This document shows, in pieces, positions 11,375 to 49,230 of a stretch of DNA of 64,000 nt. The translations under genes and the position numbers were made by a program. Under the pieces are notes generated by a model. That model worked only from the letters and a program-made list of their open reading frames with translations, was not told the DNA's origin and ran no database searches. The stretch is from Fidelibacterota bacterium (GTDB lineage: Bacteria > Fidelibacterota > UBA8477 > JABMPR01): positions 1 through 64,000 of the forward strand of contig JABIFX010000062.1 of the NCBI GenBank assembly GCA_018650445.1, read 5' to 3'. Position 1 is the stretch's first letter. Every line of letters begins with the position of its first letter.

Positions 11375-11498
11375 CGAATTGAAAATAGTTCAGAGAGGTC
11401 TTCATGCAACACAGTAAAACCTAATAACCTTGCTCCCAATTTCCAACAACCTGCACCAAATCCTTTCAATCCATGCTTATATAAACTACATTTTCGCC

Positions 11499-12752
11499 AT
11501 GTTGACACCATTTTTTAAGCGTGGTTTAGTCTTTCTTCTACTGGTAATGCCTTTGTTCCCCTGCCGTATGCTGGGTGTAATCGCATTACCAGGCGAATCG
11601 TTAAGCAGCACCGATATAAATGGTGATTGGCATCCGTACCTCTTAGGAGAGCTGGAGGAGTTTCGATTACAGGGTGGTTCAGGTCAATGGCCTTATAACA
11701 ATCAAGATGGTTGGGCCATGACGAGTTATCACGTGAGCCAGGATGTACCTGAAATCCAAACGGTTCGATCTGACGAAGGAGCATATTCTGATGTCGATTA
11801 TTATTATGAAACCTCGACACTGCTGGATGAAACTCAGGTCCCCATACTTATCGGGCATCTTCGTCAAACCAGTTCAGGAGCAACTGATATTGAAAATCCT
11901 CACCCTTTCATTTACACCGATGATAGTGGTGTAAACTTCAGTTTTGGGCATAATGGTGATATAAGCAAGGAAGCGGTTCGAGAGCTCATTGGAGATGAAT
12001 GGTTGACCCTGCACCCACCCCAAACCTACGATACTGGACCCTGGGATGGATCAGGCTGGGATAGTGTTATAGATTCCGAGTTGTTTTTCTTTTGGATCAT
12101 TAAAAATATTGAGGAATTGAACTCAGTACTTGAAGGGATTCAACAGGCGCTCATCGTCCTTGAAGATCAACAGCCCTGGCAGCTTAAAAATTTTCTCTTT
12201 TCGGATGGAACAGATTTATATGCCTATCGTCGATCGCTTATGAGTGATATTCATTATTTTGATGCCAGCCAGAATAATAACCTTCCCCCTCACCTATCAG
12301 AGAGCAATCACCGCGTGGTTATGAGCACACCTCCCACCGATGGTGCAGTTTCTGAATTACCATGGATTGAACTTCCAGATAGAAACCTTTTGATCTTCAG
12401 GGGTGATGGTAGCACTGAAATTCATGCTGGCTTTATTCCAACTGGATTAATAGCGGATACCCCGATACCAGGTCAATACAGGTTAAGCCGGGCATACCCC
12501 AATCCTTTTAACAATAGCACGACCATACCTGTTCAAGCCAATGAATCAGGCTATTACTCCATCCACATATTCAACCTAAAAGGTCAAATGATATTCGCAG
12601 AAACAAATTGGGTCAATGATGGAAGTGTGCACAATTTTCTGTGGTCTGGCCTAGATGGCGAGGGAAACGAATTACCTTCGGGTAGCTTTTTCTTTCAGAT
12701 TAGCTCATGTTCTGAGAATGTCTCAAGGGGAAAACTATTATTGCTCAAATAG
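11499..12752 (+). CDS. Exported class II glutamine amidotransferase-like protein with sorting domain
   Basis: A 417-residue protein with an N-terminal hydrophobic signal, a GATase class II (Ntn-hydrolase) domain and a C-terminal NPFN-type sorting domain. The motif CRMLGV (C22) matches the N-terminal CRLLG of YafJ/EgtC-type enzymes. GHLRQTS (119-125) and GHNGD (150-154) complete the glutaminase site. The nucleophile lies directly after the hydrophobic segment MLTPF...PLFP, so removing the leader would expose the N-terminal Cys. The last 85 residues contain AYPNPFNNSTTI and end LLLLK. ATG 11499 is chosen over an upstream TTG; no clear Shine-Dalgarno is visible. Its stop is 3 bp from that of the convergent SufS-like gene. 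Substrate unknown. Confidence 0.75.
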   Translation: MLTPFFKRGLVFLLLVMPLFPCRMLGVIALPGESLSSTDINGDWHPYLLGELEEFRLQGGSGQWPYNNQDGWAMTSYHVSQDVPEIQTVRSDEGAYSDVDYYYETSTLLDETQVPILIGHLRQTSSGATDIENPHPFIYTDDSGVNFSFGHNGDISKEAVRELIGDEWLTLHPPQTYDTGPWDGSGWDSVIDSELFFFWIIKNIEELNSVLEGIQQALIVLEDQQPWQLKNFLFSDGTDLYAYRRSLMSDIHYFDASQNNNLPPHLSESNHRVVMSTPPTDGAVSELPWIELPDRNLLIFRGDGSTEIHAGFIPTGLIADTPIPGQYRLSRAYPNPFNNSTTIPVQANESGYYSIHIFNLKGQMIFAETNWVNDGSVHNFLWSGLDGEGNELPSGSFFFQISSCSENVSRGKLLLLK

Positions 12753-12755
12753 GCT

Positions 12756-14243
12756 TCATTCACCTATATACTGATCTATTGCCCCACCAATATTAAATAT
12801 TTCTTCATTATCAACACGGTAGGATGTATTTACATAATCATTCTCTGAATTCAGCTCATACTCTTTGCTATATGTTTCACCGTTTTGAACAATATCCTTC
12901 AGGGCAGCGATGAGTAGAGCCACATCCTCCAGGGTTGAATACAGACCAAAACTAGCTCTCACCATCCCTGCTTTGCGCATAAATTCTGGAGACATATTAC
13001 CAAAATCGATTTCACCAAACTCAGCTTCAAGATCGTAAGACATCATTTCCTTGACATAGGGATGGGCGCAAAAACACTGATTCCTCACCGCAATATTAAA
13101 GTAATCGTTCAATTGAGCAGCCACCAGACCATGGTCCATTCCTCTAATGTTGAAGGAAATCGAAGCGGCCCGGGGACAAGCCTTCAGGTCAGAACCACCA
13201 TAGATGAGAATTTCTGGTATTTTAGACATCTCCTTGATGGCGGTTTCCAAAACTTCGTCTTCATCTTCCATCAGTATTTGCATACCAATTCGATCAAGAA
13301 TTTCGATGGTGGTAGCCAGGGCTATAGCTCCTGGGATATTGGGGGTTCCGGCTTCTTCTCGATCAGGAAATGTTTCTTTGACCTGGTAGCGATCTTCCAG
13401 GACGCGATCTACCATGCCTCCACCAACTTCTTCAGGTTCAATGGCCAGCAGGTGGTCCTTGCGAGCCACCACAACCCCTGGTGATCCCGGCGTGTACGTT
13501 TTATGACCAGAGAAAACGAGGGCATCAATACAGGCGTCAGGGTCATCGGGAAAAAACATTTTTGTAGGGAGGTGAGCAACACTTTGGGCGCCATCCACCA
13601 TGAGAAGGGCTCCATATTTATGGGCAAGGCGAGCGATATCATGAATGGGATTAATAATCCCAGTTACGTTACTTACAGCGGTAATGGAGACATAACTGAC
13701 TTTGCCAGCACCATCATGGAGAGCTTCTTCCAATTTGGGTAGACTAATACACATCTGATTTTCATCAAGACCATCTACAGGTACATGATATACATGCTGC
13801 ATATGCTTTCTATGAGGTAAATCATTGGAGTGATGCTCCATAATGGAGATGATTGCTGTATCTTTCTCGGGATGTACATCTCGGAAGACACGCGCCATCC
13901 TGTTGATGCCCCCTGTGGTCCCAGAGCCTGTAAAAAAACAGGTATAAATATCGGGATCTGCACTTAGAAAGCTGAGTATCCTTTCATGAGCCCAATCGTA
14001 GGCAGCTGTGGAAATGTGCGCGGAATGATGGAGTTTGCTATGCGTATTGGAGTAGTGACTCATGAAATCTGCGGTTATCTGGGCTGTTGGACGAAGCATG
14101 AGCGAGCTGGCAGTTGAGTCCAGATATATCCGTCTGGTTTTCTCCCCTCCCACCGTCTGGTAGGTTGTATCTAAACCAATAAAGTCTGAACGAATCTTTT
14201 CGAGAAGTGCTTTGCCAGTTAAAGATTTTCCAGATGATCTCAT
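12756..14243 (-). CDS. SufS-like class V aminotransferase (cysteine desulfurase / selenocysteine lyase type)
   Basis: A PLP enzyme of 495 residues in the NifS/SufS fold. The PLP lysine is K248 in FSGHKTYTPG, with D217 in MVDGAQ. The segment VRNQCFCAHP (C390, C392) occupies the place of the SufS catalytic Cys. It is some 90 residues longer than SufS, including a roughly 50-residue acidic C-terminal tail. Likely chemistry is removal of S or Se from (seleno)cysteine as a bound persulfide or selenide. No sufBCD or iscU is adjacent. The gene lies just downstream of two UGA-containing selenoprotein candidates but behind a terminator, so a selenium role is only suggestive. Confidence 0.75.
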   Translation of the reverse strand: MRSSGKSLTGKALLEKIRSDFIGLDTTYQTVGGEKTRRIYLDSTASSLMLRPTAQITADFMSHYSNTHSKLHHSAHISTAAYDWAHERILSFLSADPDIYTCFFTGSGTTGGINRMARVFRDVHPEKDTAIISIMEHHSNDLPHRKHMQHVYHVPVDGLDENQMCISLPKLEEALHDGAGKVSYVSITAVSNVTGIINPIHDIARLAHKYGALLMVDGAQSVAHLPTKMFFPDDPDACIDALVFSGHKTYTPGSPGVVVARKDHLLAIEPEEVGGGMVDRVLEDRYQVKETFPDREEAGTPNIPGAIALATTIEILDRIGMQILMEDEDEVLETAIKEMSKIPEILIYGGSDLKACPRAASISFNIRGMDHGLVAAQLNDYFNIAVRNQCFCAHPYVKEMMSYDLEAEFGEIDFGNMSPEFMRKAGMVRASFGLYSTLEDVALLIAALKDIVQNGETYSKEYELNSENDYVNTSYRVDNEEIFNIGGAIDQYIGE

Positions 14244-14348: not shown

Positions 14349-14378
14349 AAAAAGCAGGAGGCCATCCAATGGACGGCC
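14349..14378 (-). terminator. Rho-independent terminator after the first selenoprotein gene
   Basis: On the minus strand GGCCGTCC pairs with GGATGGCC (one G-T pair, loop ATT), followed by TCCTGCTTTTT. It lies 28 bp after the stop of the gene at 14407. Confidence 0.8.
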
Positions 14379-14406
14379 CCCTTGCACTCTATTTATATTG
14401 TGATGT

Positions 14407-17004
14407 CTATTTAATCAACATCATTTTTACTATTTGCTCAGAACCAGCAGCAGTTATACGGGCAAAATAAATACCGGTTTCAACCGATTTTGAAGAAGCA
14501 TCGGTACCATTCCACTGATAGCGGTAGGTGCCTGGTACAAGTTCTGACTGCACGAGACTATTTACTTCTTGACCTAGAATATCATAAATCTTCAGGGTCA
14601 CGAAACCATTAGCAGGTATACCAAACTCAATGGTAGTTGTAGGATTGAAAGGGTTGGGATAATTCTGCTTCAATTGCAGTACTTCCGGCAGCTCAATACT
14701 CTCAACACTCAGGAATTGACCCGTGTAGAAGCCGGTTCTCTGGTTATTACCGCGGGCAGTTGACCAGGTCGGACCAAGATCGGAGAGCATTTTAAGATTG
14801 ATAATGGTCAAATCATTGTTTGTCCCAACGATGATCTCCAGAGTACCGTCCTGACTTAAATCAGCCACGCTTGGAGTTCCCTGGACCGGTCCTGACATGG
14901 TTAGTGGGAATAGATCCAAGGCCGTGCCATCATGATGGAAGGCGTACAATTCTCCAGCGTTTGATCCAACGATAATCTCTGCTACACCATCACCATCAAG
15001 ATCTGCAATAACTGGTGAACTATAACAGGCTCCACCAAGACTTTGTGGCCACCCCGTCACTGTATTACCTTGATAATCAAGTACATTGATGAGACCTGCG
15101 AGGGTTGTATAAATAATCTCCATAAATCCATCACCATCGAAGTCATGTACAGCTGCAGTCGTACGAATACTGGCAGAAGAGATTCTGGTATTCCACAACA
15201 GGCTACCATCACTAGCAAGGGCATAAAAATATCCAGCATCTTGACCTGCTAATATTTCCAGTGAACCGTCACCATCTATGTCAGCAATAACAGGAGGTGC
15301 AGCAACATTGGTTACCAGATCTACTGGAAAACCACTCAATAGCTCACCATTTAGATTATAGGCGAAAATGCTATCACTCCAGGTACCAACAACAATATCT
15401 TTGCTACCATCGCCATTGATATCTGCTATGGCAACACCTGCAGACATTCTTCCACCATCAATAATGACAGGATAATTATCTACTGGGGTACCATCATGAT
15501 GGACAGCCAGTAAATCATAACCGTAACCGCCGGCGACTATTTCAAGATCTCCATCATTATCAAGGTCATCTAGCGCAGGCGTACCCATGAGGTAGCTTGA
15601 GGCTTCTGTGATAGCGCCCCCTGAGCCATTGTGTTGGATGACATGAATTTTGCGATCACGGGAAGTCACCACAACTTCCAGATCTCCATCATTGTCAATA
15701 TCAGCAACAGCTGGAGCTCCAATAATCACATTTCCCGTGATATATGGAAAACCGGCCAACTCAGTACCTGCGAGTGTGAAGACGTGGACAAGACTATCGG
15801 TTCCAGCGACCACCACCTCATTGGTTCCATCACCATCAAGATCCACGACTGCATTTCCACCCAAAATCGGTTGAGAAACGCTTACTGGAAAATTGCTCTG
15901 AAACAGGTCAATACTCACGGTAAGGGGCAAAATGACCTCATACGGATCCTCAGTGCTTTGATTGGCAACCATTCTCAAATTAAAACCGAAATCAGAGATA
16001 TCGGGAGCATCCTCTGATACCGTAAAGGCAAATTTATCGTTGAAATTTGTGACGATGTCACAGGACACAATCATATTGTAAAATCCCACACTATCTGTAA
16101 CGGTAACATATGGATTCGTTGTAGACAGGTAGCCAGTGACGTCGAAGGCATTTACAAAACCACAGGCGTTGGTTACGGACACAGAGTATTCAGCAGATTC
16201 ACCCGGGTTCAAGGTACCGTCGCCATCATCTCCCATAATACTGAGATTGGTTGAAGGAATTGAGAAGAGGGGAAAAGTGATGGGTGAAATTTCACTCACA
16301 TGAACTGTTGAGGCATTGAGTACAGTGTGGTCTAAACTCTGAACAAAGACTACGAGTCTGCAATCATCAGTTATATAACTAGGATCAACAGAAAAATTAA
16401 CCACTTCAAGTGCTTGAACACCTGCTTCCAGGGATATTGTAGTTCCTGAGGCATTTGGGAACATGTCTCGCATGACATGTTCATGATTTGGATAACCATT
16501 GGATCCCATGAAGTAGAGCCCATCCTGAACTAGAACTACATGAAGTTTATAGTCTCCACTGACACCTGCTTCAGGGGTCATAGCTACTACACAACTTCCA
16601 TTGCCACTAGGATTATCGTAAATACCGAATAGATCTATGCTGAGAGGTGCCGATGTTGCAGCATTAGATGTAATTAGGTTTTGCCATGAATTGGTATTGA
16701 CACCGTCTACCTGGATGTCAGGTACGGCATTCACTCCATAGTACTCGCGTCTTGTGGTAACGTCAGCGGGATTGTGCAGATTATAAGGATCTGTGGGTGA
16801 AGGCCAATTCACGTGGTAAGAAATTTGGGTGAACATATCTGGGTTATTTTGATAGAACACGTCTATCTGAGCCCCTGTTGGGCCGCAACCAGGTCAGCCT
16901 GCGTTGGTGAAATATTCCGTTAGGACCAATCTTTCGGCAGTATGCCCCAATGCGAATAACGCAAGCAGTATCATCACTACGCTTGCGAATCTGTTTTTGA
17001 TCAT
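14407..17004 (-). CDS. Secreted selenoprotein candidate A: Omp28/thioredoxin-like domain, FG-GAP propeller, sorting domain
   Basis: Read through a UGA at 16894-16896, this gene encodes 865 residues. Residues 1-23 are a signal peptide (MIKNRF... ending HTA). Residues 24 to about 250 are an Omp28/thioredoxin-like domain with TNAG-U37-PGC40-GP, a U-x-x-C redox motif. About 250-365 is a CARDB-like beta domain (DGTLNPGESAEYSV). About 385-735 holds eight FG-GAP/VCBS calcium-type repeats (LDGDG, DNDGD). The last 85 residues form a NYPNPFNP sorting domain ending MMLIK. The start ATG has GGAGAG 4 nt upstream. Without recoding, only a 36-residue peptide would be made. The product is probably surface-bound or secreted. 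The UGA is seen; Sec insertion is inferred from the paralog and the hairpin. Confidence 0.85.
16851..16867 (-). promoter_or_regulatory. SECIS-like hairpin downstream of UGA codon 37 (selenoprotein A)
   Basis: Nucleotides 27-43 after the UGA form a 6-bp stem GATAGA/TCTATC with loop CGTGT. The loop begins 32 nt after the UGA, within the 16-37 nt spacing described for bacterial SECIS elements, and has G in its second position. The same positions pair in the paralog with different bases. It lies inside the coding sequence, as bacterial SECIS elements do. Confidence 0.75.
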
Positions 17005-17065
17005 AATCTCTCCAAGTTGAATTGTATTATGTGCCTGTGTAAAGCATGGCATAACATAGATAAAG

Positions 17066-17096
17066 GAGGGGGACTGTGCCACCACAAAGCTCTTCG
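17066..17096 (-). repeat. Degenerate copy of the terminator found at 19918-19948
   Basis: The stretch around CTGTGCCACCACAAAGC resembles TTTGTGCCATCACAAAGC at 19918-19948, with flanking GATAA and AAGG also shared. Each lies about 62-64 bp upstream of a selenoprotein start codon. The copy here has lost most of the stem pairing. It is the expected relic of a duplication that included the leader as well as the gene. Confidence 0.55.
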
Positions 17097-17165
17097 TGAA
17101 AGAAACGTTAGTAAAAATTAATTTTGAGATCCAAACTATCTGCGTATTGAATCATAAGTGGGTAC

Positions 17166-17200
17166 TAAAAGAAGAAGACCATCCAATGGATGGTCTTCTT
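17166..17200 (-). terminator. Rho-independent terminator after the second selenoprotein gene
   Basis: A perfect 13-bp stem (AAGAAGACCATCC with its complement, loop ATT) is followed on the minus strand by TTTTAG. It lies 27 bp after the stop at 17227 and separates the two paralogous genes transcriptionally. Confidence 0.9.
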
Positions 17201-17226
17201 ATGAAAAACTACAACGAGTTGATGAT

Positions 17227-19854
17227 CTATTTGATCAGTGTCATCTTTATAACTTGTTCGCTCGTAGTTGTTTGTATTTTTGCGAAGTAAATACCTGCTG
17301 CAACAGTATTACCTGATCGATCCAAACCATTCCATTGTAAAGAATAACGCCCTGATGATAAAGTAGCATCAATCAGAGTAGTCACTTCATTGCCTCGTAC
17401 ATCAAAAATGGTCAACATAGTTGCTGCCATCTCCGGTATACCAAACTCTATGGTTGTGCCCGGGTTAAAGGGGTTGGGATAATTTTGCTCAAGCGTTAAC
17501 TGATCAGGAACTACCCGCTCATTGTGGGTTCCCACGAGGTTATTAGGAAGATAGCCTGTTCGTTGGAAATTCCCACGCGAGGTATACCAGAAAGATCCAG
17601 CTTCGCTAATTGCAGGCATATCTACCACGCTAAGTCCAAGATCAGTTCCAAGCAGAATCTCCACATTCCCATCGAGATCAAGATCCTGAATGGTAGCTGC
17701 ACAATGCACTCTGGCACCCTGTGTCATAGGAAAGTTGGGCATAAGTGTTCCATCTATCTGGAAGGCGTACAAATCATTAGAGTCATCCCCAAGAATAATC
17801 TCAGGAATACCATCACCGTCAATATCTGCCAAAGTAGGCGGACTGTAACAGGTTGTGGCAAGACTCTGAGGCCACCCATCCAGCATGTTTCCAGCATAAT
17901 CCAGAACATTAACGCGACCCTCTGGAGATACATAAACAGTTTCCATCAGACCGTCCAGATTGTAATCAAATACTGCAAGGGCACTTAAAATCGGAATTGC
18001 TGCAAATTGGTGATTCCAGGTTACGACTCCAGTGCTTGAGATCGCATAAAGTTCACCCCCCAATTGACCTGTGATTATTTCAAGACTTCCGTTACCTGTT
18101 AGGTCGGTAATTACTGGAGGGGTTTTGATGCTTTGGCCTAAATCAATAGGAAATCCCTCCAGGCTGATACCACTGGCATTATAAACATGAATGAATCCTG
18201 CATTGGTACCGACGACGATATCTTTGGATCCATCTCCATCAATATCAGCGATGGCAGGCGCTGCTTCCATGCGTTCACCATCTATGATAATCGGAAAACC
18301 TGTCAGAGGAGTACCATCGTGATGGAGAGCGATTAGATCATAACCAAACCCTGCTACAACAACTTCCATATCACCGTCGTTGTCCAGGTCATCTATAACA
18401 GGAGTTCCCATAATTGGACCGCTAGCCTGGGCGACTAATTCGCCAACTCCTTCATGGTCTATTATATAGATGCCACCATCGGATGTAGTGAAGACAATAT
18501 CCAAGAATGAATCATCGTCTATATCTCCTACAGCTGGGGCTGTTGTGATTTTCCCTTCAGAAACAAAAGGGAACCCCGTCAATTCAACGCCAGCGGCAGT
18601 AATGGCATGAAGCAGGCTATCCACCCCGCCAAATATTACTTCTTGGGTTCCATCACCATTGAGATCTAGTACAGCGCTACCGCCTACAATCCCGCCCTCA
18701 TAGCTGATGGGGAAATTATTCTGGAACATATCAATCGTCACAGTGAGCGTCTTATTGGTTTCATAAGGATTCTCTGAATCCTGGTTCGCAAGAAGGCGTA
18801 AATTGAAGTCAAATTCACTAACTCGTGGTGCCTCAGATGAAACTGTGAATGTAAATTTGTCTATGTCATTACTGGCTGTACTACATGGGGGCAGTGAACT
18901 GAATACACCTATGCTATCACTAATACTGATTAAAGGGTTAGTACTGGATAAATAACCAGTTATGCCAGTGGCTTCAATCCAGTTACAACTGTTATCTATT
19001 GTCACATAATAATTGGCTGATTCACCTGGATTAAGTTTGTTGTCAGCATTGTCATCAAACAGGTCGATACTTGTAGATACTGTCTGGAGGTATGGGACAT
19101 TGATAGGAGTAAACTCGGTCACATCAAAACTTGCTGTATTCAAGATTGATTTGTCAGAAGCCTCGACAAACACGACGAGACGACAGTTAGCAACTGCAAA
19201 ATCCTGAGGTATTTGCACGTCGACGGATACTGTTGCATCAACGGCTGCTTCCAAACTAATGGGAGTACCTACATACCCAGGGAACATATGGCGCATGACT
19301 GCATCATGATGAGGATATCCATTGGATCCCATGAAGTACAAACTATCCTCAACCAAAACTACCTGGAGAGTGTATGCACCTGTCACACCTGCTTCAGGGG
19401 ATAAAGTGATATCCAAATTACCGACTCCTTGATAGTTCATATCTCCAGTTGCAGTTATTGAAAGGGGCGCAGTCGTTCCCGCTTGATTCAGGATTGCTGC
19501 TCCCCACACCGAAACATCCTGGTTATCATTTAAACCATTGTTACCATCCACCGCAATATACGGAACCCAGTTGCTACCATTAGGATTAGGATAGGACTGT
19601 ATGCGAGCTATTGGGTCGACAGTGTTATAACTATAATAAGGATCACTGCCAGGCCAAGACACATGGTAATGTATTGAAGTGAATGCTGATTCGTTACCTT
19701 GTCGGAAAACTTCCAACTCTGCCCCTGCGGGACCACAACCAGGTCAGCCAGCGTTGGTGAAATATTCAACAAGCACCAGCCGCTCTGCTGAATGTCCCAG
19801 CGCAAATAGAGCCAGCAGTACCATCAATACTATTGTCAATTTGTTTTTGATCAT
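17227..19854 (-). CDS. Secreted selenoprotein candidate B, paralog of candidate A
   Basis: With UGA at 19744-19746 read as Sec, the gene encodes 875 residues. The layout matches candidate A: signal peptide 1-23 (MIKNKL... HSA), Omp28/thioredoxin-like domain with TNAG-U37-PGC40-GP, a CARDB-like region (KLNPGESANYYV), eight FG-GAP/VCBS repeats (LNGDG, IDGDG), and a NYPNPFNP sorting domain ending MTLIK. The ATG at 19854 has GGAGAG upstream, identical to candidate A, and gives U at the same residue number. No other stop interrupts the frame. A start at the TTG just after the UGA would delete the signal peptide and redox motif, which is implausible for a sorted protein. Location is inferred to be the cell surface. 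Confidence 0.85.
19701..19717 (-). promoter_or_regulatory. SECIS-like hairpin downstream of UGA codon 37 (selenoprotein B)
   Basis: Nucleotides 27-43 after the UGA form a 7-bp stem GTTGGAA/TTCCGAC (one G-T pair) with loop GTT, G in first position, starting 33 nt after the UGA. Compared with paralog A, pairs 28-42, 29-41 and 30-40 change on one or both sides while pairing is kept, and G34-U35 of the loop is conserved. Confidence 0.78.
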
Positions 19855-19913
19855 AATCTCTCCGTATTTTTTTTGAAACTGATTGATCTAGAAAACTATT
19901 GACTAAGATAGAT

Positions 19914-19947
19914 AAGCAAAGGGCTTTGTGCCATCACAAAGCCCTTT
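19914..19947 (-). terminator. Terminator hairpin between the RND operon and selenoprotein B
   Basis: A perfect 13-bp stem AAAGGGCTTTGTG/CACAAAGCCCTTT with a 4-nt loop is followed on the minus strand by a weak T-tract (TTTGCTTATC). It lies 41 bp after the RND gene stop and about 64 bp before the selenoprotein B start, so any promoter for that gene must overlap or follow it. Confidence 0.75.
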
Positions 19948-19988
19948 GTTTAACAATTTTAATAATCTGCAGCCCTAGGCTGAGGAGA

Positions 19989-22900
19989 CTATGTTGTACT
20001 CCCTAGCTTTTTTCGTTCTGCACGGCTCTCAATTAAGGAATATAAGACTGGGACTATGATGAGAGTCAGGAAGGAGGAAACTGCCAGACCAAAGATCAAA
20101 CTGACTGCGAGGGGTCTCCAATATTCGGCTCCACCTGCCAGGTTCAAGCTTAAGGGAATCATACCTGCCAGTGTAGTTACGGTGGTGAGAATGATTGGGC
20201 GAAGTCTGTTCCTGCCAGCCTTAATTAAGGCTTCCCGCACCCGCATACCTGTCTTACGCAGATCGTTGACATAGGCGATAAGCACAATTGCGTCATTTAC
20301 CACCACTCCCATGAGAGCTACCACACCAAAAAAGGCCATAATTCCAAATGGAACTCGGGTGACCATGAGACCAAAAATCACTCCAATAAATGAGAGCGGT
20401 ATCGCCAGACCGATGATCAGAGGTTGTTTGAAGGATTTGAACTGAGCACTCAGGATGATCATGATCACAACAAATCCGATCATCATGGCTCTACCAAGGC
20501 TTGCAAAAGATTCGGAAGCCTCGTCTTCAATCCCACCATAATCCACAGTAACACCGTTTGGTACTGCAAGTTTAGCCAGGAAGGGATCCATGTGACGTCG
20601 AATATCCGTGGCATCGACACCCTTGGCCAGATCACAGGACACCGAGATGTTGCGCTTGAAATCCTGGTGCTTAATCAGGGTTTCACTACTGCCTAGCTCC
20701 AAAGAGGCGACATTTTCAAATGGTATCATCTGCCCCATCTGGTTCATGATGTTCAAATTTCGAATTGCATCGACAGCATCGTCGCCATCCGTTTTCAGGC
20801 GAACAACAACGGGAATATCTTCGAGACCATCTGAGTAGGTCGTTGCCTCCAGACCAATCATCGCTGCAGCCAGGGTGTTGCTTACTTCCTGGCTGGATAG
20901 TCCATAATTCGCAGCACGATCGTGATCAACAATAGCCTGGAACTCAGTTCTGCGTACACCCAGACTCGATTCAACATTCAAGGCACCTTCTACAGTCGCC
21001 AAATCTCGTTTTACCTGCTCTGCCACAAAACCTATGGCTTCCAGATCATCACCACTAATATCAATGATTACATTGCTGGCAATGGGTGGTCCTTCAACAA
21101 TTGTTTGAAGCACGATTTCAACACCAGGTATACGCGAGAGATCTGCATCCATAATAGCCATGAGATCATCAACCGAAATATCGCGCTCACCGGTTTCTAC
21201 CAGGTCCACATTTATCTGACCAATTTCGGCGCCTTTGCCACCTCCTTGAGCCAAACGCACATTCTGAACGCCACTCTCTCCAACCGTGGAAACAATTCTA
21301 TCAACTTCTACAAAACCAATCAAGTATTCTTCAATTTCCTTGACTACAGCATCGGTATAATCGAGTTGACTCCCTGCAGGGGTGTTGATATCCAGAATAA
21401 TCCTGGGTTTAGCAACCTTGGGGAAAATTTCCAATTTGACTAGCTTGGTATCACTGACAGCAGAAATTCCTACTGCAGCAATGGACATAAAGAAAACGAC
21501 TGTAGCTCCAAGTATGACCAGAATTCGGTGATTCAATGCCCATTTGACAATGCGAGTATAAGCACGCTTACCAGCCCACTCTCCACTGAGCAAGCCAGCG
21601 CGCTTTGTAACCATCATCATTTTCGAAGCGAGAACTGGAATGAGGAAGTGATCAGCTAGAAATGCTCCAACCAGAGTGAATATGACCACTTTGGGAATCA
21701 CGGATAAAAATTGGCCCATGGTTCCTGACATATAAATAATGGGTGCGAAAGCCACCATGGTGGTCAACACTGAAGTCATAATGGGGATTCCCACTTCATC
21801 GATGGCCTGTAAAGCGGCAGCCTTGCGGCTAAGCCCTTCCTCCATATGTCGATAGGTCGATTCAGCCACAATGATGGCGCCATCCACCACAATACCCAGC
21901 ACAATAATCAGTCCAAACATAGAGATACCCGTGCGTGCCAGATCAAAGACATACATGAGGGGAAATGAAGACATGAGTGCAAACGGCAGCGCAATGGAGA
22001 CGATAAGGGCGTTTTTAAAGCCGATTCCCGCAAAGAGAACAATGATGACGAACAAAATTCCCCAGGCAGCATTCTGGTTTAGCTGACTGTTCTGTCTTTC
22101 GATATCTGTGGCTTGTCTGGCAGTATAGGCATAATCCATTCCGTCAGGGAACTTTGCAGCCAGTTCGTCAACAACTGCTTCAATCTGCTCAGTAGCTTCC
22201 ACAATGTGGGCACCGGTTCTTTTTGAAATGAGTAACGTCACACTATTCTGCTGCTGGTAGCGGGAATAACTTGATGGTATCTCAAAACCATCTGTTACCG
22301 TTCCTACATCACGAATACGTTTCACATTGCCAGATGCATCAACGCCTAGAATAGTATTTTCTATGTCATTGATATCAGAATACTTACCTACGGTGCGTAC
22401 AAATATGTCCTGGCCCTTCAGTTTGACAGTACCGCCGGGGAAATTCATATTGCTCCGGCGCAGCGCCATCATGATTTGCGGGATACTGAGATTGTTTGCC
22501 AGAAGCAAATTGGGATCAATATCGATGGCAATTTCACGCTCTTCACCACCAAACATCTCCACTTGATTCACACCGGATATGCGTGTGAGTTGATCCTTAA
22601 TCAGCTCAGCTTGAATGCGTAATTCATGGGGTGAGAAATCTCCAAAGATATTCAGAATACTTATCGGTGTGTCGGCAAAATCGATATCTGTTACTGTAAC
22701 ATTATCTATTTCATCTCTGAGCTCAGGAATAGCCTCGTTTACTTTCTCCTTTAAATCATCTATACTTATATCAAGATCAGCTTCTGGAGAAAACTTGATG
22801 GTGATAAAACCGACATTTTGCATGGCATAACCCGTGATGTCATCAACATCCTGTAATTGTGCCAGTTTTTCCTCAATAGGTTTGAGAATCTCGGTTTCCA

Positions 22901-23075
22901 CTTCAGAAGGTGCTGCACCAACATAGGTTGCTGATACAAAGGCATAGGGAATTTCAATGACCGGAACCAACTCTAGCGGAAGAATCAAATACGTTGTTAT
23001 ACTGGCAATAAAAATGCCCAGTGAAGCAAAGATGATGGCCATGGGATGATTTATGGCCTGTTTTGAAATTTTCAT
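19989..23075 (-). CDS. RND-type multidrug efflux transporter (inner-membrane pump)
   Basis: A 1028-residue AcrB/MdtB-type pump with an N-terminal helix, two large periplasmic loops and two sets of membrane helices, the usual length for the HAE1 family. It exports drugs or amphipathic compounds with proton antiport as the trimeric core of a tripartite pump. The TM4 motif reads LGIVVDGAIIVAE, so the second Asp of the usual DD pair is Gly. The TM10 motif is MGVVVNDAIVLIAY, without the AcrB-type Lys. This pattern occurs in RND branches other than AcrB. The gene follows the adaptor by 14 bp in the operon tetR-tolC-mfp-rnd. Substrates cannot be read from sequence. Confidence 0.92.
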   Translation of the reverse strand: MKISKQAINHPMAIIFASLGIFIASITTYLILPLELVPVIEIPYAFVSATYVGAAPSEVETEILKPIEEKLAQLQDVDDITGYAMQNVGFITIKFSPEADLDISIDDLKEKVNEAIPELRDEIDNVTVTDIDFADTPISILNIFGDFSPHELRIQAELIKDQLTRISGVNQVEMFGGEEREIAIDIDPNLLLANNLSIPQIMMALRRSNMNFPGGTVKLKGQDIFVRTVGKYSDINDIENTILGVDASGNVKRIRDVGTVTDGFEIPSSYSRYQQQNSVTLLISKRTGAHIVEATEQIEAVVDELAAKFPDGMDYAYTARQATDIERQNSQLNQNAAWGILFVIIVLFAGIGFKNALIVSIALPFALMSSFPLMYVFDLARTGISMFGLIIVLGIVVDGAIIVAESTYRHMEEGLSRKAAALQAIDEVGIPIMTSVLTTMVAFAPIIYMSGTMGQFLSVIPKVVIFTLVGAFLADHFLIPVLASKMMMVTKRAGLLSGEWAGKRAYTRIVKWALNHRILVILGATVVFFMSIAAVGISAVSDTKLVKLEIFPKVAKPRIILDINTPAGSQLDYTDAVVKEIEEYLIGFVEVDRIVSTVGESGVQNVRLAQGGGKGAEIGQINVDLVETGERDISVDDLMAIMDADLSRIPGVEIVLQTIVEGPPIASNVIIDISGDDLEAIGFVAEQVKRDLATVEGALNVESSLGVRRTEFQAIVDHDRAANYGLSSQEVSNTLAAAMIGLEATTYSDGLEDIPVVVRLKTDGDDAVDAIRNLNIMNQMGQMIPFENVASLELGSSETLIKHQDFKRNISVSCDLAKGVDATDIRRHMDPFLAKLAVPNGVTVDYGGIEDEASESFASLGRAMMIGFVVIMIILSAQFKSFKQPLIIGLAIPLSFIGVIFGLMVTRVPFGIMAFFGVVALMGVVVNDAIVLIAYVNDLRKTGMRVREALIKAGRNRLRPIILTTVTTLAGMIPLSLNLAGGAEYWRPLAVSLIFGLAVSSFLTLIIVPVLYSLIESRAERKKLGSTT

Positions 23076-42310: not shown

Positions 42311-42805
42311 CTAGTTATAATCCACTTCAACGATAAAATCTCCATCATATTGTCCAGGAACCAGGCCTACCAGGCTGAAACGACATCCAACCCACATGTA
42401 ATAAACTCCTGCTGAGTTTAAAACAACATTTTCAGGATTGGTGGTAAACAGGATAGAAGCAGATTGATTATTTTCAGGACTCCCGCTCAACATGTAATTC
42501 ATGAGCAGGGGTTGATTTGTATCAAGATTGGTCATGGTTACCTGTATAGAATAGGATACCTGGATACTGGAGTTGGCCTGTCCCTCCAGTCGTAATACGC
42601 CTGCACCACCATCGGTAATAGGAGAAATCACTTTCTCTTCCTGCCCAGGCAATACTATCCCGGCATCTATATCAGAAATCGTTATCACTTCAATCTGATC
42701 TAAAACATTGGCAGAGATGTGAAGTTCAATGGCGGATTTTTCCTGCTGACCCAAAAGACTAGATCCGAGAATGAGTAAGCCAATTATGTAGTTGGACAGC
42801 TTCAT
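42311..42805 (-). CDS. DUF4402-like minor subunit coupled to the adhesin
   Basis: A 164-residue exported protein with signal peptide ending SSLLGQ. The pattern is that of the other subunits: LHISANVLDQIEVITISDIDAG, 'GAGVLRLEGQANSSIQVSYSI', and a terminal GLVPGQYDGDFIVEVDYN strand. Its ATG overlaps the adhesin TGA stop by 4 bp (ATGA), so it is made in step with the adhesin. That suggests it is the adaptor that joins the adhesin to the fibre, by analogy with tip adaptors of chaperone-usher pili. Confidence 0.58.
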   Translation of the reverse strand: MKLSNYIIGLLILGSSLLGQQEKSAIELHISANVLDQIEVITISDIDAGIVLPGQEEKVISPITDGGAGVLRLEGQANSSIQVSYSIQVTMTNLDTNQPLLMNYMLSGSPENNQSASILFTTNPENVVLNSAGVYYMWVGCRFSLVGLVPGQYDGDFIVEVDYN

Positions 42806-45800
42806 CGTAATAATATCATCTTCTTCGTAAAGTATTTATCGTCTATTTGCATTTGACAGAAATATATACCGCTGCTGCGTCCTGTAGCAAGCCAGTTCAG
42901 ATTGTGTTGGCCTGCGAAATAGAATTTACTTTCAACAAGTTGGTCAACAAGCCTTCCTCTAACATCATATATTTTCGCGGAGACCCTTCCCTCAAGTGGA
43001 ATTGAAAATGGGATGATGGTACCTTCATTAAATGGGTTTGGATAGTTTTGACCCAGGGTAAAATCCTTGGGAATCTCAGGGAATGCATTGCCTGGATCAA
43101 TCCTGAGCAAAAATCGTGGGCCATCTTCATCGCTCTTTTTCATCAGTTGAAAAGGTACAGATCCTGTAAGATTCCGAGTGGGAGAAATTGGTAATAGCGA
43201 TTTTTTCCCAAGTCTGTTCACATCAAATTCATAATACTCATGGACCGCCATATCTATTTGGGCTCCAGTTTCCAAATCTTCCAGTGTCAAAGTCCATTCA
43301 GAATGGAGGTCCTGCATCCGAGGCCATGATAGCTTATAGGATCCCGAGAGTGGAGCACTATTCACATAACCATTGACATAGATTGGAATCTCCAGAGTCC
43401 TTCCAAAGCGCGAAGGATGAGACTGAATAGTAAGCAGCTTGTGGTCATAACTTTCCGTATACAGTTCCAGATATGTCTGAGTCGGGGGCATCAGATAGTA
43501 GGCATCCCGATCATCCTTGTTGATGGAACCGAATTCATTGAACTCGATGAAAGTGTTGGTCAGAAGTGTGTCATTTTCCAGTAACAGATTCAGAAGGGGC
43601 TGATTTTGTGCCCGTTTATAGAAGACACCACCGGTGACCTTACTGGTTTTCGGAACCTTCAGGACCGGTGCGGCGGCATTGGCCTTGACCCAGAATCCTT
43701 GAAAAGGTGAGATCAAACCACTGCCCAGCGATCCGGCAGTGCCATTCCAGGTTAGATAGGCACCCTCGCCTGAGTTGGCCGCATGATCCCAGACATAGAT
43801 CACGTTATCCATGTTGGTTTTGGTCCAGCCCACATCATCCCAATCAATGGTAGCCATAAAGGGGTTACCCACCAAGTTCCAGCCCGTATCTGCTGCGGCT
43901 GTATAAGTAACGCCAAAATCGAAGGCGCCAGCAGTTCCCTCATCTTCCAGTCCAACCACATCCAGAGTGGTGGGTAAAGGATCAGAATAGGCTGCCTCGC
44001 CAGGAATATCCCCAAAAGCATACACAAACAGGCCGCGACCAGCCACAGTGGCATCCGTGGCATTAGCTGGTTTACGCCAACGTTGGTTATCCGTCCCTGT
44101 ATAGGTTTCGTCATAGTACAGGACAGATGGAGATCCTGTGGCAGAGTCAGATCCAGTATATCCCTGGGTAAGGAAATTGCTAAACAGGTCAGCATAGGTG
44201 GACGCTACCGGACTCGCCAATAGGCGCCATCCAGTCACCCCGGTAATTCCTCTTTCTCCGCGTATCGTACCTGACGTAATGGATTTTGTATTTGCGATCA
44301 ATGATCGGCCAGTAGGTACGACCAAACTACCATTGGTCAGTGTTAACGTCCCAGTGACGGTAAAATCTTCAACCAGGAGGACTCCGGAAGGGTTATCAAT
44401 GGTCATATTCACCAGGCTACTACGATTGGAGAGGCGTTGAGAGAGTGAACCATTGAACTCCACATTGTCAAGTGAGAGACTAGAAATGCTCAGCTCTCCT
44501 CCGACCCGCAAGGTATCGACAGAGCTACCAATAATCTCACCTTGGCCTGACAGATCGCCGGTAATATCGAAGCTGATCCCTCCTGAAATGGTTACGTCTG
44601 CCCCTGATTCAATGGACATAGACCCTATCTGCAGATTGTCAGTTGAAATGATTGGGTAGCGAATTCCCTCTGCAGGTGGGTTGGGAATCAGCACAGCATC
44701 ACCGACTCCGGGAATGCCATTATCCCAATTGAGTGCATCGTTCCAATTGCTAGTGTAAGGATCATTACCAGGATCACTCTCCCACTTATGGGTAAAGGAA
44801 TCGAACTGAACACTGGCATCATCGGTCATTCCTGTACCATTGAGGAGGCCTGTGATTACTGCGGTCTCAACTGTGTTGGATGACTGTAAGGTCTGGGTGT
44901 AGGTCCCATCGCCTTCATCGACGACAACCCCCAACAGACTTCCAGCGCTGGCAATCAAATTGACGGTTTCGCCTCCTGAATTCAGATCATTACCACCGGC
45001 ATCTTTGAGTTGAACCGTGATCAGGGTTGTGCTCGCCCCATCGCTGCGGATCACACTGGAGGCTGAGATAATTTCAGATGTAATCGCGGACGCAGCACCA
45101 GAGAGGACCGAAAAACTATTGCTGTTGCCAAATTCAGAACCACCTGTATTGGTCGCTGTCAGTGTAAAATCTCCGATACTGCTCAAGGCCAGAGTATAAG
45201 AACTTAAGACTCCAGCCGTAAAGGCAACCGTGGTGCCACTGCCAACGCTGAGGACACCAGAAGATGAAATATCTACGGTACCATTAAAGGTCGCATCAAC
45301 GGTTTGAGTTCCATCCACGGCAGATATTTTCACATTGAAGCTAATGCCTGCATCCTGTGTAAGAATGGGACCGCCGCTCTCCTTCTCAAGGAGGAAGGTG
45401 GTGAATTGACCGGGGTTGGTGATATCAAAATTGCCGCTTACTGCTGATGTGAGTCCAGCACTACTTGCCGTCAACTGGTAAGTATCTACCGTATTAATAC
45501 TTAGATCGCTAAAGGAGACCTGCCCCTGAGCGTCTGTGTTCAAAACCATACTGCCACTCAGGCTACCACTACCCGTTGTGATGGCAATGGCGATTGGTGT
45601 GCCTGCGATCAGGACCGAATTGCCGTTGGCATCCTTAACCTCCGTATCAATAGCTGGCGAAAGCACATTATTGAGCGTACCAATGGTTGGTGCCTGGGAA
45701 TAGATGATGTTGCTAGCAGTCCCTGCAAACATTTCAAAAATTCCGAAGTTGGTGGCTCCGGTGGCCCCGGTGGTCCCGGTATTTGTAATGGTTCCAGAAT

Positions 45801-48800
45801 TTGGAACCGTACCAGTGTTCGGTTGTATGCGCAGACCACTAAAAGTCACCTTACCCTGGGTATTTACTCCAGCTGATGATTCGTTGGTAACGGTGAAAGT
45901 AACGGTCGAACTATTACGGCTGGTATACGTCATGGCGAGAGAGGTAGGTCCTGTTAACGCAGGTTCAACAGTTACCCCAGGATCAGCTCCACCAGTATCC
46001 CATTGAAACCCAATTGGGGCATTTAGAATAATCGTTCCATTTAGAGCTAAATCACCTGAGACATCCTCGGTGAGACGCGGACCGGTTAAGGTGGTCCATG
46101 CAGAATTTGCATCATCGGCTGAAATAGCTTCACCCCCAGTGGCAGGTTCCAGCAGCCCCACGCTCAGAGAATACTTGTCAGACAGATATTCCTCAACGAT
46201 ACTTCGCTCAAATTCAGAGAGATGACGGGTATAAAAAATGACTTCAGACATAAGTCCATCCCAACCACCCGGGGGGGTATCCTCGGCTCCCACGCCAATT
46301 TTGAATCTGCGTGCATTGACCAGAGGAGCATTGGGTGGAATTCCAGAGAAAGAGGGATTGTTCAGCACACCATTCAGATAGAGATCATAGACAGAGCCAC
46401 TATTCCAATCCACGCATATGATCTGAGCGTCCGTGGTTTGGGCATTCTGGCTACTTTCTTTTTCATTTGAGGTAACATCTGCTCCAATGGCTACCTTGAT
46501 CACATCGGATGCACTGCCATTATCTCCGGTAGCATCGTACCTTATGGTAAATTCTTTGTCACCCTTGTCGGCATTGCGAGTGGTCATAAACCCCTTATCA
46601 GTACCAGTAGAATAAGACTGTACTACGAAAAAGCTGGTAAACCCGGTGAGCCCGTTGATATATGCTTCTCCCGCTTCATCCACCATGGACTCGCCGCCAG
46701 TCCCTGAAAATTCAATGGCATTGGCTGAATTCAAACCAGCCACACCGATCCGGGCTAGTGGGTTTCCATCATCGTTGATAAAATCATGACCATTTCCGCT
46801 CTGGTCTTTCCACAGGGCAATAGTCTGCCCCTCGGTGGCGGGAATAGTCCCAGCCAAATCATTGAAAACATCTGCATTACCATTCAACCACAACTCCAGA
46901 TCTGCAACTGTGGCAGGTTTACCTGAGGCAATGGCACGTGTCACTCCTGGACTATAAAGCTCACCATCGCTGACTGAGTATTCAACAACCCGAGTGGCTA
47001 ACTGGGGCGAAGGTTGAGTATTCTCGTAAGTAACCGATCGAAGTGCGATTTCATATTGAGTCAGAGTATTGGTCCCCTGCAGAACCAGGAGCCCGATACC
47101 GCTATACCAAGTGCTGGTGATCCCATAGATACTGCTGAATGCCAGAACGTCCTCACCAGATACATAGCTTCCTGTGATCTGGACCCGGGCACTGTCCAGA
47201 AAGGTATCGTCACCATCTTCGGCCGTGAGATCATCGGTAATGGCTACAGCACCATCGCCAGCTTCATAGGCGAGTCCTATGCTCTCCACATTGCCCAGAA
47301 TCGGCGCATCGTTGACCGGCGTCACGGATAAATCTCGTGTGACAATGGAGCTATGATCAGAACCATCGCTGATTTCAAAGCTGATTGTGCGGGTGGTAAC
47401 CGATGGATCAGGGTTCAAATTTTCATAGCGTACGGATCGAAGGGCGGTCTGGTAATTTAAGGTTGATGAACTCCCTGACAGCAGAATAACACCACTGACG
47501 CTATTCCAAGAGGCGGTGATACCGTTCTCAGGAGTAAATAGAAGTTTGTCCTCGCCACTCACGTAGCCTGCGGTGAAGGATACCCAGGCTGAGTCCATAT
47601 AGGCATCATCCAGGTCGGATACCAAAACACTACTGGTAATGGCAGTATCTGGGTCCCCATCAGTAAAAGCAAGGGTGGTCCCTTCAATACTAGTTAAGAC
47701 AGGTGGGTTATTCACTCCATTGATAGAAATATTTCTGGTTGATCCGCCACTGATTGCCACACCATCATCAATGCTGATACTCACTGTACGGGTCAATGTA
47801 GAGGGAGTGAGACTATTATTATAATATTTGATGGACCGTAACGCTGCGTTGTAGGTCGTCAGTGAGGCAGTCCCGGTGAGCGTTAACGTACCAGTGCCCT
47901 CAACCCAGGAGCCAGTGATGCCGTTGGCATCAACAAATTCCAGGGTGTCTTCAGGACTGACGTAGTTCGTGGTGATCTGGATCGTCGCTCCAGTGAGGTC
48001 TACATCGCTATAGTCATTACATTCAATACTCGAGGTAATCGGCTGAGCGGGATCAGTTTCCTGATAAGAGAGTGTGGCAGTCTCCAGGTTAGCAAGGGTT
48101 GGACTCTCATTTGCAGTTGAAATGGTGTGGAAGGTGCCAGGAGTAGCCATATTCGTGTGTTCAGTTGCTATCCAGTCGGCTGATAAGGCGATATTGGAAA
48201 CACGGATCTCATCAATGAGGCCATCCCATGATGACGCGGTCAGGTCTGTTATTCCCTTACCAATAATAAAGGTTAGAGCGCCCTGGGTGTTTCCAGACCT
48301 CGTAGTCTGTGTAGCGCCTACATCTAGTGAGCCATTGATATATAAGTCGGTGGCACTTCCAGCCACACGCGCCAGGGTCAGGTTGTGCCAACTGGTGGTC
48401 ACCTGGTTATCGCTGGAATTGTGTTTCTGATTTCCATCACTCGCACGAATGGTGGTTCTCCATCTATTGATTCCCGCACCACCGATACTTCCTGCAGCAT
48501 CTGCACGCAGGGACAGTTTATTGTCGTTTCCTGCAGGCGTTTTGGCAATATACAAACCTCTGTCAGTATCTATCGCATCTGGCTTGGCCCAGATTGAAAC
48601 TGTAATATCAGCTAGCTGATCCAGATAGATCGCACCATTCTGATCTTCCAGATAGTCTCCGTCCCCATCAAACTCTCTGGCAGCTCCCAATACACCTGCT
48701 GGATTCACAACAGTGAGGTTGTTGAGCAGGGTATGCCCATTGGGACTTGAATCGTTAAGATCCTCAAGATGCCAGACACTGAGGTAATTTGCATTCCAGG

Positions 48801-49230
48801 TTGAGGTAGTAGATTGGTTTGTAAAAATAGCATCATTGCCATAGTAAAGATATATGTCAGTATCCACCGTGGGAGAAAGTACTGGCAGACGTACCCAACT
48901 CAGCACATGACCTGTAGCTGGGTCATAGTTTTGCAGTTCCTGATCCAATAAGGTGCTGCCATCAGCCTCAGTAAAAATGATATCAAAGCCAGAGGGGTTG
49001 ACAACACCACCACCGTTGGCAAGGGATTTGAGCTTCACGTCAGTGAATTCGACCATTACCGGAAAATTAGTGTGGGCAGTGGAGCCACTGATCTGGGAGC
49101 TATTGAGCGTGATCAGTTTACGATGCCCGTAACCGGCAGGCTGAGCTGACAAGTCTGAAGTAAATACCAGAATTACCAACAGCATCCAGAGATGACCCTG
49201 CACGTATATCTTGGTACTTATTTTATTCAA
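42802..49230 (-). CDS. Giant multidomain surface adhesin with sorting domain
   Basis: A 2142-residue secreted protein. Approximate order: signal peptide (to about 30), DUF2341-type domain (32-125, LYYGN), LamG/concanavalin-like domain (135-365), three tandem repeats of about 125 residues (375-750, each with a 'LR S[VI] xYxN' strand and TRT[IV]S[IF]), a second LamG-like domain (755-990, QSGNGHDF), invasin-type Ig domains (about 1140-1480, VKDANGNSV and LKDAGGNDL), a beta-rich 'WRLLASP' module as in other sorting-domain proteins (1690-1900), and a NYPNPFNE sorting domain at the end (KKMILLR). The start is TTG; it gives a Lys-containing n-region, whereas the internal ATG would not. It likely binds glycans or proteins at the cell surface. 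Confidence 0.8.
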   Translation of the reverse strand: MNKISTKIYVQGHLWMLLVILVFTSDLSAQPAGYGHRKLITLNSSQISGSTAHTNFPVMVEFTDVKLKSLANGGGVVNPSGFDIIFTEADGSTLLDQELQNYDPATGHVLSWVRLPVLSPTVDTDIYLYYGNDAIFTNQSTTSTWNANYLSVWHLEDLNDSSPNGHTLLNNLTVVNPAGVLGAAREFDGDGDYLEDQNGAIYLDQLADITVSIWAKPDAIDTDRGLYIAKTPAGNDNKLSLRADAAGSIGGAGINRWRTTIRASDGNQKHNSSDNQVTTSWHNLTLARVAGSATDLYINGSLDVGATQTTRSGNTQGALTFIIGKGITDLTASSWDGLIDEIRVSNIALSADWIATEHTNMATPGTFHTISTANESPTLANLETATLSYQETDPAQPITSSIECNDYSDVDLTGATIQITTNYVSPEDTLEFVDANGITGSWVEGTGTLTLTGTASLTTYNAALRSIKYYNNSLTPSTLTRTVSISIDDGVAISGGSTRNISINGVNNPPVLTSIEGTTLAFTDGDPDTAITSSVLVSDLDDAYMDSAWVSFTAGYVSGEDKLLFTPENGITASWNSVSGVILLSGSSSTLNYQTALRSVRYENLNPDPSVTTRTISFEISDGSDHSSIVTRDLSVTPVNDAPILGNVESIGLAYEAGDGAVAITDDLTAEDGDDTFLDSARVQITGSYVSGEDVLAFSSIYGITSTWYSGIGLLVLQGTNTLTQYEIALRSVTYENTQPSPQLATRVVEYSVSDGELYSPGVTRAIASGKPATVADLELWLNGNADVFNDLAGTIPATEGQTIALWKDQSGNGHDFINDDGNPLARIGVAGLNSANAIEFSGTGGESMVDEAGEAYINGLTGFTSFFVVQSYSTGTDKGFMTTRNADKGDKEFTIRYDATGDNGSASDVIKVAIGADVTSNEKESSQNAQTTDAQIICVDWNSGSVYDLYLNGVLNNPSFSGIPPNAPLVNARRFKIGVGAEDTPPGGWDGLMSEVIFYTRHLSEFERSIVEEYLSDKYSLSVGLLEPATGGEAISADDANSAWTTLTGPRLTEDVSGDLALNGTIILNAPIGFQWDTGGADPGVTVEPALTGPTSLAMTYTSRNSSTVTFTVTNESSAGVNTQGKVTFSGLRIQPNTGTVPNSGTITNTGTTGATGATNFGIFEMFAGTASNIIYSQAPTIGTLNNVLSPAIDTEVKDANGNSVLIAGTPIAIAITTGSGSLSGSMVLNTDAQGQVSFSDLSINTVDTYQLTASSAGLTSAVSGNFDITNPGQFTTFLLEKESGGPILTQDAGISFNVKISAVDGTQTVDATFNGTVDISSSGVLSVGSGTTVAFTAGVLSSYTLALSSIGDFTLTATNTGGSEFGNSNSFSVLSGAASAITSEIISASSVIRSDGASTTLITVQLKDAGGNDLNSGGETVNLIASAGSLLGVVVDEGDGTYTQTLQSSNTVETAVITGLLNGTGMTDDASVQFDSFTHKWESDPGNDPYTSNWNDALNWDNGIPGVGDAVLIPNPPAEGIRYPIISTDNLQIGSMSIESGADVTISGGISFDITGDLSGQGEIIGSSVDTLRVGGELSISSLSLDNVEFNGSLSQRLSNRSSLVNMTIDNPSGVLLVEDFTVTGTLTLTNGSLVVPTGRSLIANTKSITSGTIRGERGITGVTGWRLLASPVASTYADLFSNFLTQGYTGSDSATGSPSVLYYDETYTGTDNQRWRKPANATDATVAGRGLFVYAFGDIPGEAAYSDPLPTTLDVVGLEDEGTAGAFDFGVTYTAAADTGWNLVGNPFMATIDWDDVGWTKTNMDNVIYVWDHAANSGEGAYLTWNGTAGSLGSGLISPFQGFWVKANAAAPVLKVPKTSKVTGGVFYKRAQNQPLLNLLLENDTLLTNTFIEFNEFGSINKDDRDAYYLMPPTQTYLELYTESYDHKLLTIQSHPSRFGRTLEIPIYVNGYVNSAPLSGSYKLSWPRMQDLHSEWTLTLEDLETGAQIDMAVHEYYEFDVNRLGKKSLLPISPTRNLTGSVPFQLMKKSDEDGPRFLLRIDPGNAFPEIPKDFTLGQNYPNPFNEGTIIPFSIPLEGRVSAKIYDVRGRLVDQLVESKFYFAGQHNLNWLATGRSSGIYFCQMQIDDKYFTKKMILLR

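Follow-up and report, generated by a model that had tools for sequence, protein, structure and literature searches.

How are two neighbouring genes to be read when each forms one long frame broken by a single stop codon close to its start? The question is raised by the window analysed here, the whole of a 64,000-nucleotide stretch of DNA from Fidelibacterota bacterium (GenBank assembly GCA_018650445.1, contig JABIFX010000062.1, positions 1 to 64,000), in which two tandem genes, called gene 1 and gene 2 below, carry an in-frame TGA near the 5' end (Table 1). Both are very probably translated through this UGA as selenocysteine (Sec, U), which would give secreted proteins composed of an Omp28/HBP35-like domain with a U-x-x-C site, a propeller and a type IX sorting tail. 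The selenoprotein reading of both genes is strongly supported by sequence comparison, and we infer from it and from the predicted domains that the products contain selenium, are exported and have a redox function.

One conserved UGA in each frame

Translation confirms what the initial annotation had described, namely one continuous frame per gene, broken only by UGA at codon 37 and followed by more than 800 codons with no other stop. Each gene contains a single in-frame TGA, at codon 37 in both and in the context FTNAG-TGA-PGCGP, and behind it 828 (gene 1) and 838 (gene 2) codons remain open; at the local GC content, a frame of 829 codons of random composition would do so with a chance of about 1e-21. 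The proposed start and end of the proteins also hold, since both frames begin with ATG, a GGAGAG read from the sequence lies 4-9 nucleotides 5' of it, and the terminal sorting domain scores above the TIGR04183 cut-off in both. The two proteins are 51% identical. A third Omp28-FG-GAP copy is found in the same genome on contig C210 (locus L021, position 122 onward), with its own TGA and its own upstream hairpin of the kind treated in the last section.

Table 1. Features of the gene pair and of the third copy (window positions unless a contig is named).
Feature	Position	Strand	Remarks
Gene 1, predicted selenoprotein	14407..17004	-	865 residues with TGA read through
Gene 2, predicted selenoprotein	17227..19854	-	875 residues; domain order as gene 1
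In-frame TGA, codon 37 of gene 1, predicted Sec of U-x-x-C site	16894..16896	-	from the frame; invariant Sec/Cys column
In-frame TGA, codon 37 of gene 2, predicted Sec	19744..19746	-	from reading of the frame
SECIS-like hairpin, gene 1	16851..16867	-	GAUAGA-CGUGU-UCUAUC, 6 bp, loop 32 nt past UGA
SECIS-like hairpin, gene 2	19701..19717	-	GUUGGA-AGUUU-UCCGAC, loop 32 nt past UGA
Omp28/thioredoxin-fold domain, gene 1	16291..16941	-	residues ~22-238; PF11551 60.1 bits; pLDDT 94.6
Omp28/thioredoxin-fold domain, gene 2	19117..19791	-	residues ~22-246; PF11551 59.9 bits
FG-GAP beta-propeller region, gene 1	14785..15897	-	residues ~370-740; PF13517 115.5 bits, 6 stretches; from model
FG-GAP repeat region, gene 2	17605..18717	-	residues ~380-750; PF13517 83.6 bits, 4 stretches; limits approximate, set by analogy with gene 1
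Type IX secretion sorting tail, gene 1	14419..14661	-	residues 782-862; TIGR04183 36.2 bits; PF18962 29.5 bits
Type IX secretion sorting tail, gene 2	17245..17481	-	residues 792-870; TIGR04183 29.2 bits
Ribosome-binding-site-like GGAGAG, gene 1	17008..17013	-	read from sequence
Ribosome-binding-site-like GGAGAG, gene 2	19858..19863	-	read from sequence
Upstream hairpin element, gene 1	17055..17100	-	degenerate copy; covariance model 57.6 bits
Upstream hairpin element, gene 2	19907..19952	-	stem 19917-19948, terminator-like
Upstream hairpin element, third copy	C210 26-71
Terminator-like hairpin 3' of gene 1	14356..14382	-
Terminator-like hairpin 3' of gene 2	17172..17200	-

The same codon recurs among relatives. 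A homologue is present at E 0.001 in 36 of 100 related genomes. Within the genus, 22 genes from 14 genomes belong to the FG-GAP branch, each with one TGA in the matched domain and 20 with the propeller, the remaining two being cut by contig ends; one further UGA gene of this branch, propeller included, occurs in a sister genus. Among the homologues of the 100 related genomes, none that bears a propeller was found to have a sense codon in place of the UGA, and an 874-residue Cys frame in genome G062 is without propeller. One gene of the branch (genome G006, contig C58) has a TAG in addition to its TGA and is perhaps decaying or affected by an assembly error.

Outside the fused branch, in more distant homologues, the site is mostly occupied by cysteine. 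Homologues of about 430 residues in the same genomes carry Cys there, and the TGA stands in the context T-x-x-x-U-x-x-C in the aligned homologue rows that were examined. The 40 rows examined, out of 41 loci on named contigs, divide into 15 with U, 18 with Cys and 7 that are not callable; U is found in Neomarinimicrobiota and in one Candidatus (Ca.) Zixiibacteriota, and Cys in the callable Ignavibacteria and Bacteroidetes. When 46 homologues are aligned, neither the Sec/Cys column nor the second Cys varies. A search of 5.8 billion proteins returned 48 matches, 40 of which begin 3' of residue 37, all with listed FG-GAP domains; two of these 40 are the window genes or near-copies of them (P0039 is an exact part of gene 2, and P0002 is 99.9% identical to gene 1). 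The alignment that the initial annotation had suggested, to see whether Cys occupies residue 37 in relatives, gives a positive answer in all eight database proteins that cover the site and for 18 of the 33 rows with a callable residue.

In a tree of 40 rows, several placed on long branches and some deep placements being unsure, the tandem genes fall in two separate clades with several species in each, so that the duplication would be older than the species in each clade. Farther away, the Ca. Zixiibacteriota contig (L087) holds a 1271-codon Omp28 frame from that other phylum with U at the site; it contains eight TGA and its limits are unsure. Other families of the phylum contain frames of 561-1177 residues with one TGA and an Omp28 match (L136, L137 and others), and their sequences suggest further fused Omp28 selenoproteins.

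A probable recoding hairpin and the selenocysteine machinery

A short hairpin resembling a selenocysteine insertion sequence (SECIS) occupies nucleotides 27-43 3' of the UGA, starting 26 nucleotides after it. Its trace is visible in codon choice among 19 genes: directly 3' of the UGA, pairs of identical residues share their codon at 0.77 against a mean of 0.46 (standard deviation 0.07), the highest value of 843 overlapping intervals, likely because of the hairpin. Across 25 distinct sequences every cell of the six pairs is paired (100%), and four of the pairs show both-sided changes, which 3 of 500 shuffles equalled; the covariation score was reached by 0 of 500 shuffles, and slid registers drop to 18-63%. 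The same columns pair in 52.8% in 12 Cys homologues (12 of the 15 Cys rows entered this alignment), which is equal to shuffles. The bacterial SECIS model, as given in the available part of PMC13188914, asks for an upper stem of 4-16 bp, a loop of 3-9 nucleotides with G in its first two positions, a distance of 16-37 nucleotides from the UGA and a minimum free energy of -7.5 kcal/mol or lower. Both genes contain a hairpin of this description, as do all 27 UGA homologues that score above 110 bits, and none of the 15 Cys homologues does. This count leaves out six UGA homologues below 110 bits, and the motif filter lost from it L040 (UGA), L039 and L071 (Cys). Some short UGA forms (L058, L059, L060, L036, L038) have the same hairpin after the UGA.

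The rest of the apparatus is present as well. The initial annotation had held that absence of the sel genes from the genome would speak against the selenoprotein reading; SelA (520.6 bits) and SelB (347.8 bits), which share a contig, SelD (362 bits) and tRNA-Sec (72 bits, anticodon TCA) are all found there. In SelD of this genome (L015 1528-1530, contig C56) an in-frame TGA, as judged by eye, stands in a UAGK context, so that SelD too is predicted to be a selenoprotein. Across genomes, SelB scores above its cut-off in 23 of 24 with the UGA form versus 43 of 76 others (Fisher p 1.8e-4, kinship not corrected). The latter group included G057, G087 and G094, which have further TGA-bearing matches and all three SelB; after moving them, the counts are 26 of 27 versus 40 of 73.

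These elements would fit together as follows. SelB and Sec-tRNA would insert Sec at codon 37, presumably directed by the conserved hairpin behind it; the general secretion pathway would export the protein and the type IX system would move it across the outer membrane. Outside the cell, the U-x-x-C pair would likely act as a thiol:disulfide oxidoreductase, by analogy with what has been shown for the Cys protein HBP35, and the FG-GAP propeller may offer a platform for binding a ligand or a surface.

Domain order, known relatives and competing explanations

Family models place Omp28 (PF11551), FG-GAP (PF13517) and the TIGR04183 tail in the same order in both proteins, all above their cut-offs (34.9, 26.9 and 23 bits, respectively); the Pfam tail model PF18962 exceeds its cut-off of 27 bits in gene 1 alone. 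The full-length structure model of gene 1 has a mean predicted local distance difference test score (pLDDT) of 85 and a predicted template modelling score of 0.62. Its thioredoxin-like domain contains a beta insert. Residues from about 243 to 365 form a beta domain whose modelled shape we read as immunoglobulin-like, those from about 370 to 740 form the propeller, and a tail domain follows behind a low-confidence linker. In the Omp28-domain model, a U-x-x-C of thioredoxin type precedes helix 1, both residues being strictly conserved, and the best PDB match is HBP35 (5y1a); it is from this modelled fold and this motif that we infer a redox function. Concerning export, both proteins have a signal-peptide-like N-terminus by eye, their first 36 codons are conserved, and the search for type IX components, which covered SprA, found a homologue in the genome (PF14349, 119.1 bits, frame of 2202 residues). 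Signal-like start, TIGR04183 tail and SprA homologue together argue for secretion. The initial annotation had called both products U-x-x-C selenoproteins exported to the surface; a U-x-x-C Omp28 domain followed by FG-GAP and tail is supported by the sequences, and surface export is to be taken as a prediction.

The same annotation had not recognised the combination among described selenoprotein families. The Omp28-related kind is already known: the available text of PMC2398784 reports it in 2008 as 'hypothetical protein GOS_C', a UxxC protein of thioredoxin-like fold represented by 74 sequences with Sec and 312 with Cys, and states that no functional evidence is available. GOS_C is listed as NF045500, UxxC, in Table 1 of a 2026 review (PMC13188914, seen in part), and the NCBIfam name of NF045500 is 'Omp28-related selenoprotein'. 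The window genes share with it the Omp28/thioredoxin-like domain, the U-x-x-C and the predicted Sec. They differ in score, gene 1 reaching 43.7 bits against a cut-off of 200 and gene 2 giving no match at E 0.1, and in size: among the matches listed, 35 of 43 NF045500 genes above the cut-off have frames of 354-441 residues, compared with 865-875 residues and an FG-GAP propeller in the window genes. Of 245 genomes from the same phylum, 24 contain members above the cut-off, and 40 of the 43 listed genes have one TGA (a gene in two pieces being counted once). By eye, NF045500-type genes also have a different hairpin-like stretch, GCGAGUUUCGC and variants, which sits elsewhere than that of the window genes, at about nucleotides 16-26 past the UGA. 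The FG-GAP-fused form is a variant of this known kind, and no description of such a selenoprotein was found in the literature searched, the coverage of which was incomplete.

Other relatives lie at different distances. In the available parts of PMC2907840 and PMC3120885, HBP35 of Porphyromonas gingivalis is a type IX-secreted, insulin-reducing Cys protein, and its hemin binding is located away from the CxxC (PMC2907840). It has Cys where the window genes have predicted Sec, and these parts mention no FG-GAP propeller. The Omp28 lipoprotein model NF033782 (PDB 2r2c) gives the window genes 28.8 and 38.2 bits versus a cut-off of 150, and no lipobox is seen by eye. Short Omp28 UGA forms from the same order (L058, L060, L038) share the Omp28 domain, the UGA and the hairpin with the window genes; together with the Cys form L061, they are of about 300-330 residues and have a dockerin-like tail instead of propeller and sorting tail. 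This tail is above the Pfam cut-off in L038 and L061 and below it in L058 and L060.

Could the UGA be a true stop? Each gene would then make a 36-residue peptide, and the long frame would be translated from an internal GTG or TTG as a truncated cytoplasmic protein. Gene callers do read it in this way, as seen from the 40 of 48 database proteins that start after residue 37 and from the list of open reading frames (ORFs), which gives 817 and 829 residues from GTG/TTG. However, such a product would be without signal and redox site, although the first 36 codons are conserved, signal-like and accompanied by a ribosome-site-like GGAGAG. Moreover, Cys stands at the UGA site in all eight covering database relatives and in 18 of 33 called rows (the other 15 having UGA), and a covarying hairpin constrains synonymous sites 3' of the UGA, so that we consider termination very unlikely. 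It is still harder to believe in a pseudogene or a one-base sequencing error. A TGA is indeed one base away from TGC or TGT, but the same TGA is present in three copies in this genome and in 22 genes from 14 genomes of the genus, and more than 800 open codons would be unlikely by chance. Its presence in further assemblies rules out a base-calling error at the TGA, and this ground for refutation, raised in the initial annotation, fails as far as assemblies can show.

A frame that remains open across the UGA would also be expected if another amino acid than Sec were inserted, by stop reassignment or plain read-through. This is highly improbable, since in a hand-picked set of 39 main ORFs from the window five end in TGA, and their frames close again after 4-62 codons; TGA works there as an ordinary stop, and the genetic code is therefore not changed. 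Besides, a SECIS-like hairpin and the full Sec machinery are present, and homologues carry Cys instead. A last alternative accepts Sec but not its role: the domain would be no extracellular oxidoreductase and would instead bind metal, heme or peroxide, or the protein would be periplasmic. The hemin binding of HBP35 outside its CxxC (PMC2907840) and the statement on functional evidence for GOS_C (PMC2398784), both taken from partial texts, leave room for it. Nevertheless, a thioredoxin-type U-x-x-C with two strictly conserved residues before helix 1 speaks for redox chemistry, and the sorting tail and SprA speak against a periplasmic location; we regard this alternative as unlikely.

Several observations weigh against the translation of both genes as secreted, redox-active selenoproteins. 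The host assembly is a draft, 86.75% complete and 4.56% contaminated, and SelB was not detected in one genome with the UGA form (G013, 86% complete). In the hairpin, further pair types are no better than in shuffles (318 of 500 as high), the best 55-nucleotide fold omits it in 3 of 27 sequences, single-sequence folding of the post-UGA region gives a stability not above shuffles (z +0.75 to -1.35), and an Rfam search of this region returned no known element. In six distant UGA homologues (below 110 bits), between 1 and 3 of the six pairs form at this position; these homologues may have other recoding elements, as NF045500 genes appear to have. On the protein side, PF18962 reaches 26.5 bits on gene 2, slightly below its cut-off of 27. 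As for the redox function, HBP35 and the Omp28-domain model are kin in fold with a sequence identity of 15%, and a PDB sequence-profile search with three sequences retrieved only 2axo (E 0.063) and not HBP35.

Upstream hairpin, gene neighbourhood and implications

A second structured element precedes the genes. It is a hairpin of at most 15 bp, ACGAAGGGCUUUGUG-RURG-CACAAAGCCCUUUGU-like, whose 3' end lies mostly 59-62 nucleotides from the ATG. In 16 distinct sequences, 88.3% of cells pair and six pairs show both-sided changes; 0 of 500 shuffles reach the pairing or the both-sided changes, and 1 of 500 reaches the number of pair types. The underlying alignment of 18 sequences was selected for showing the element and is without L029, L030 and L034, in which it is degenerate or absent, so that these pair counts are biased towards structure. 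The exact 16-nucleotide core occurs 17 times, in 10 of 19 genus genomes and always directly 5' of one of these genes, at a distance of about 70-95 nucleotides, and its reversed control has no match across the 19 genomes. In the genome of the window, a fourth core site (contig C60) requires one mismatch, and the control also gives one match there. A covariance model, built from 18 of the 19 sites that it finds in 11 genomes and scored on 150 candidates per genome, otherwise detects only four of the same palindromes from the other strand. It has no match in G002, G005 and G017, genomes with genes of the FG-GAP branch.

The pair is flanked by a resistance-nodulation-division (RND) permease gene (19989-23075) and a cysteine-desulfurase-like gene (12756-14243), and relatives repeat this arrangement, with the RND permease first, then the selenoprotein gene(s) and then the cysteine-desulfurase-like gene. 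Of the 40 loci examined, 18 show an RND match and 10 a pyridoxal-phosphate enzyme; some of the loci represent one and the same gene, and many end before their neighbours are reached. Being terminator-like before gene 2, the upstream hairpin may stop transcription that comes from the RND gene, act as an attenuator for the selenoprotein gene or serve as the binding site of a regulator. A wider picture is tentative and, in our view, possible rather than probable: a Sec-only outer-surface family with its own regulon, in which the hairpin would be an attenuator or operator that adjusts the production of a costly selenium enzyme to selenium or redox state, and the product a selenium-powered thiol:disulfide reductase kept on the cell surface by a type IX system. 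Next to the desulfurase-like gene, on the opposite strand (11430-12752, +), lies a gene for a 440-residue protein with a type IX sorting tail. Elsewhere in the window, an ORF of 2142 residues spans 42802-49230.

Because all 40 FG-GAP-fused database entries start past residue 37, they are without signal sequence and active site. The gene pair itself offers a clean case in which Sec is predicted to be used outside the cytoplasm, in a protein that also bears a propeller and a type IX tail. Since the activity of HBP35, a Cys protein of the same fold, has already been measured, what Sec adds in an extracellular thiol enzyme is directly testable. In addition, the upstream hairpin, found only 5' of these genes, is a candidate for a dedicated control of selenoprotein genes. 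Of greatest interest in the family are this hairpin and the likely role of Sec outside the cell in a protein fused to a propeller.

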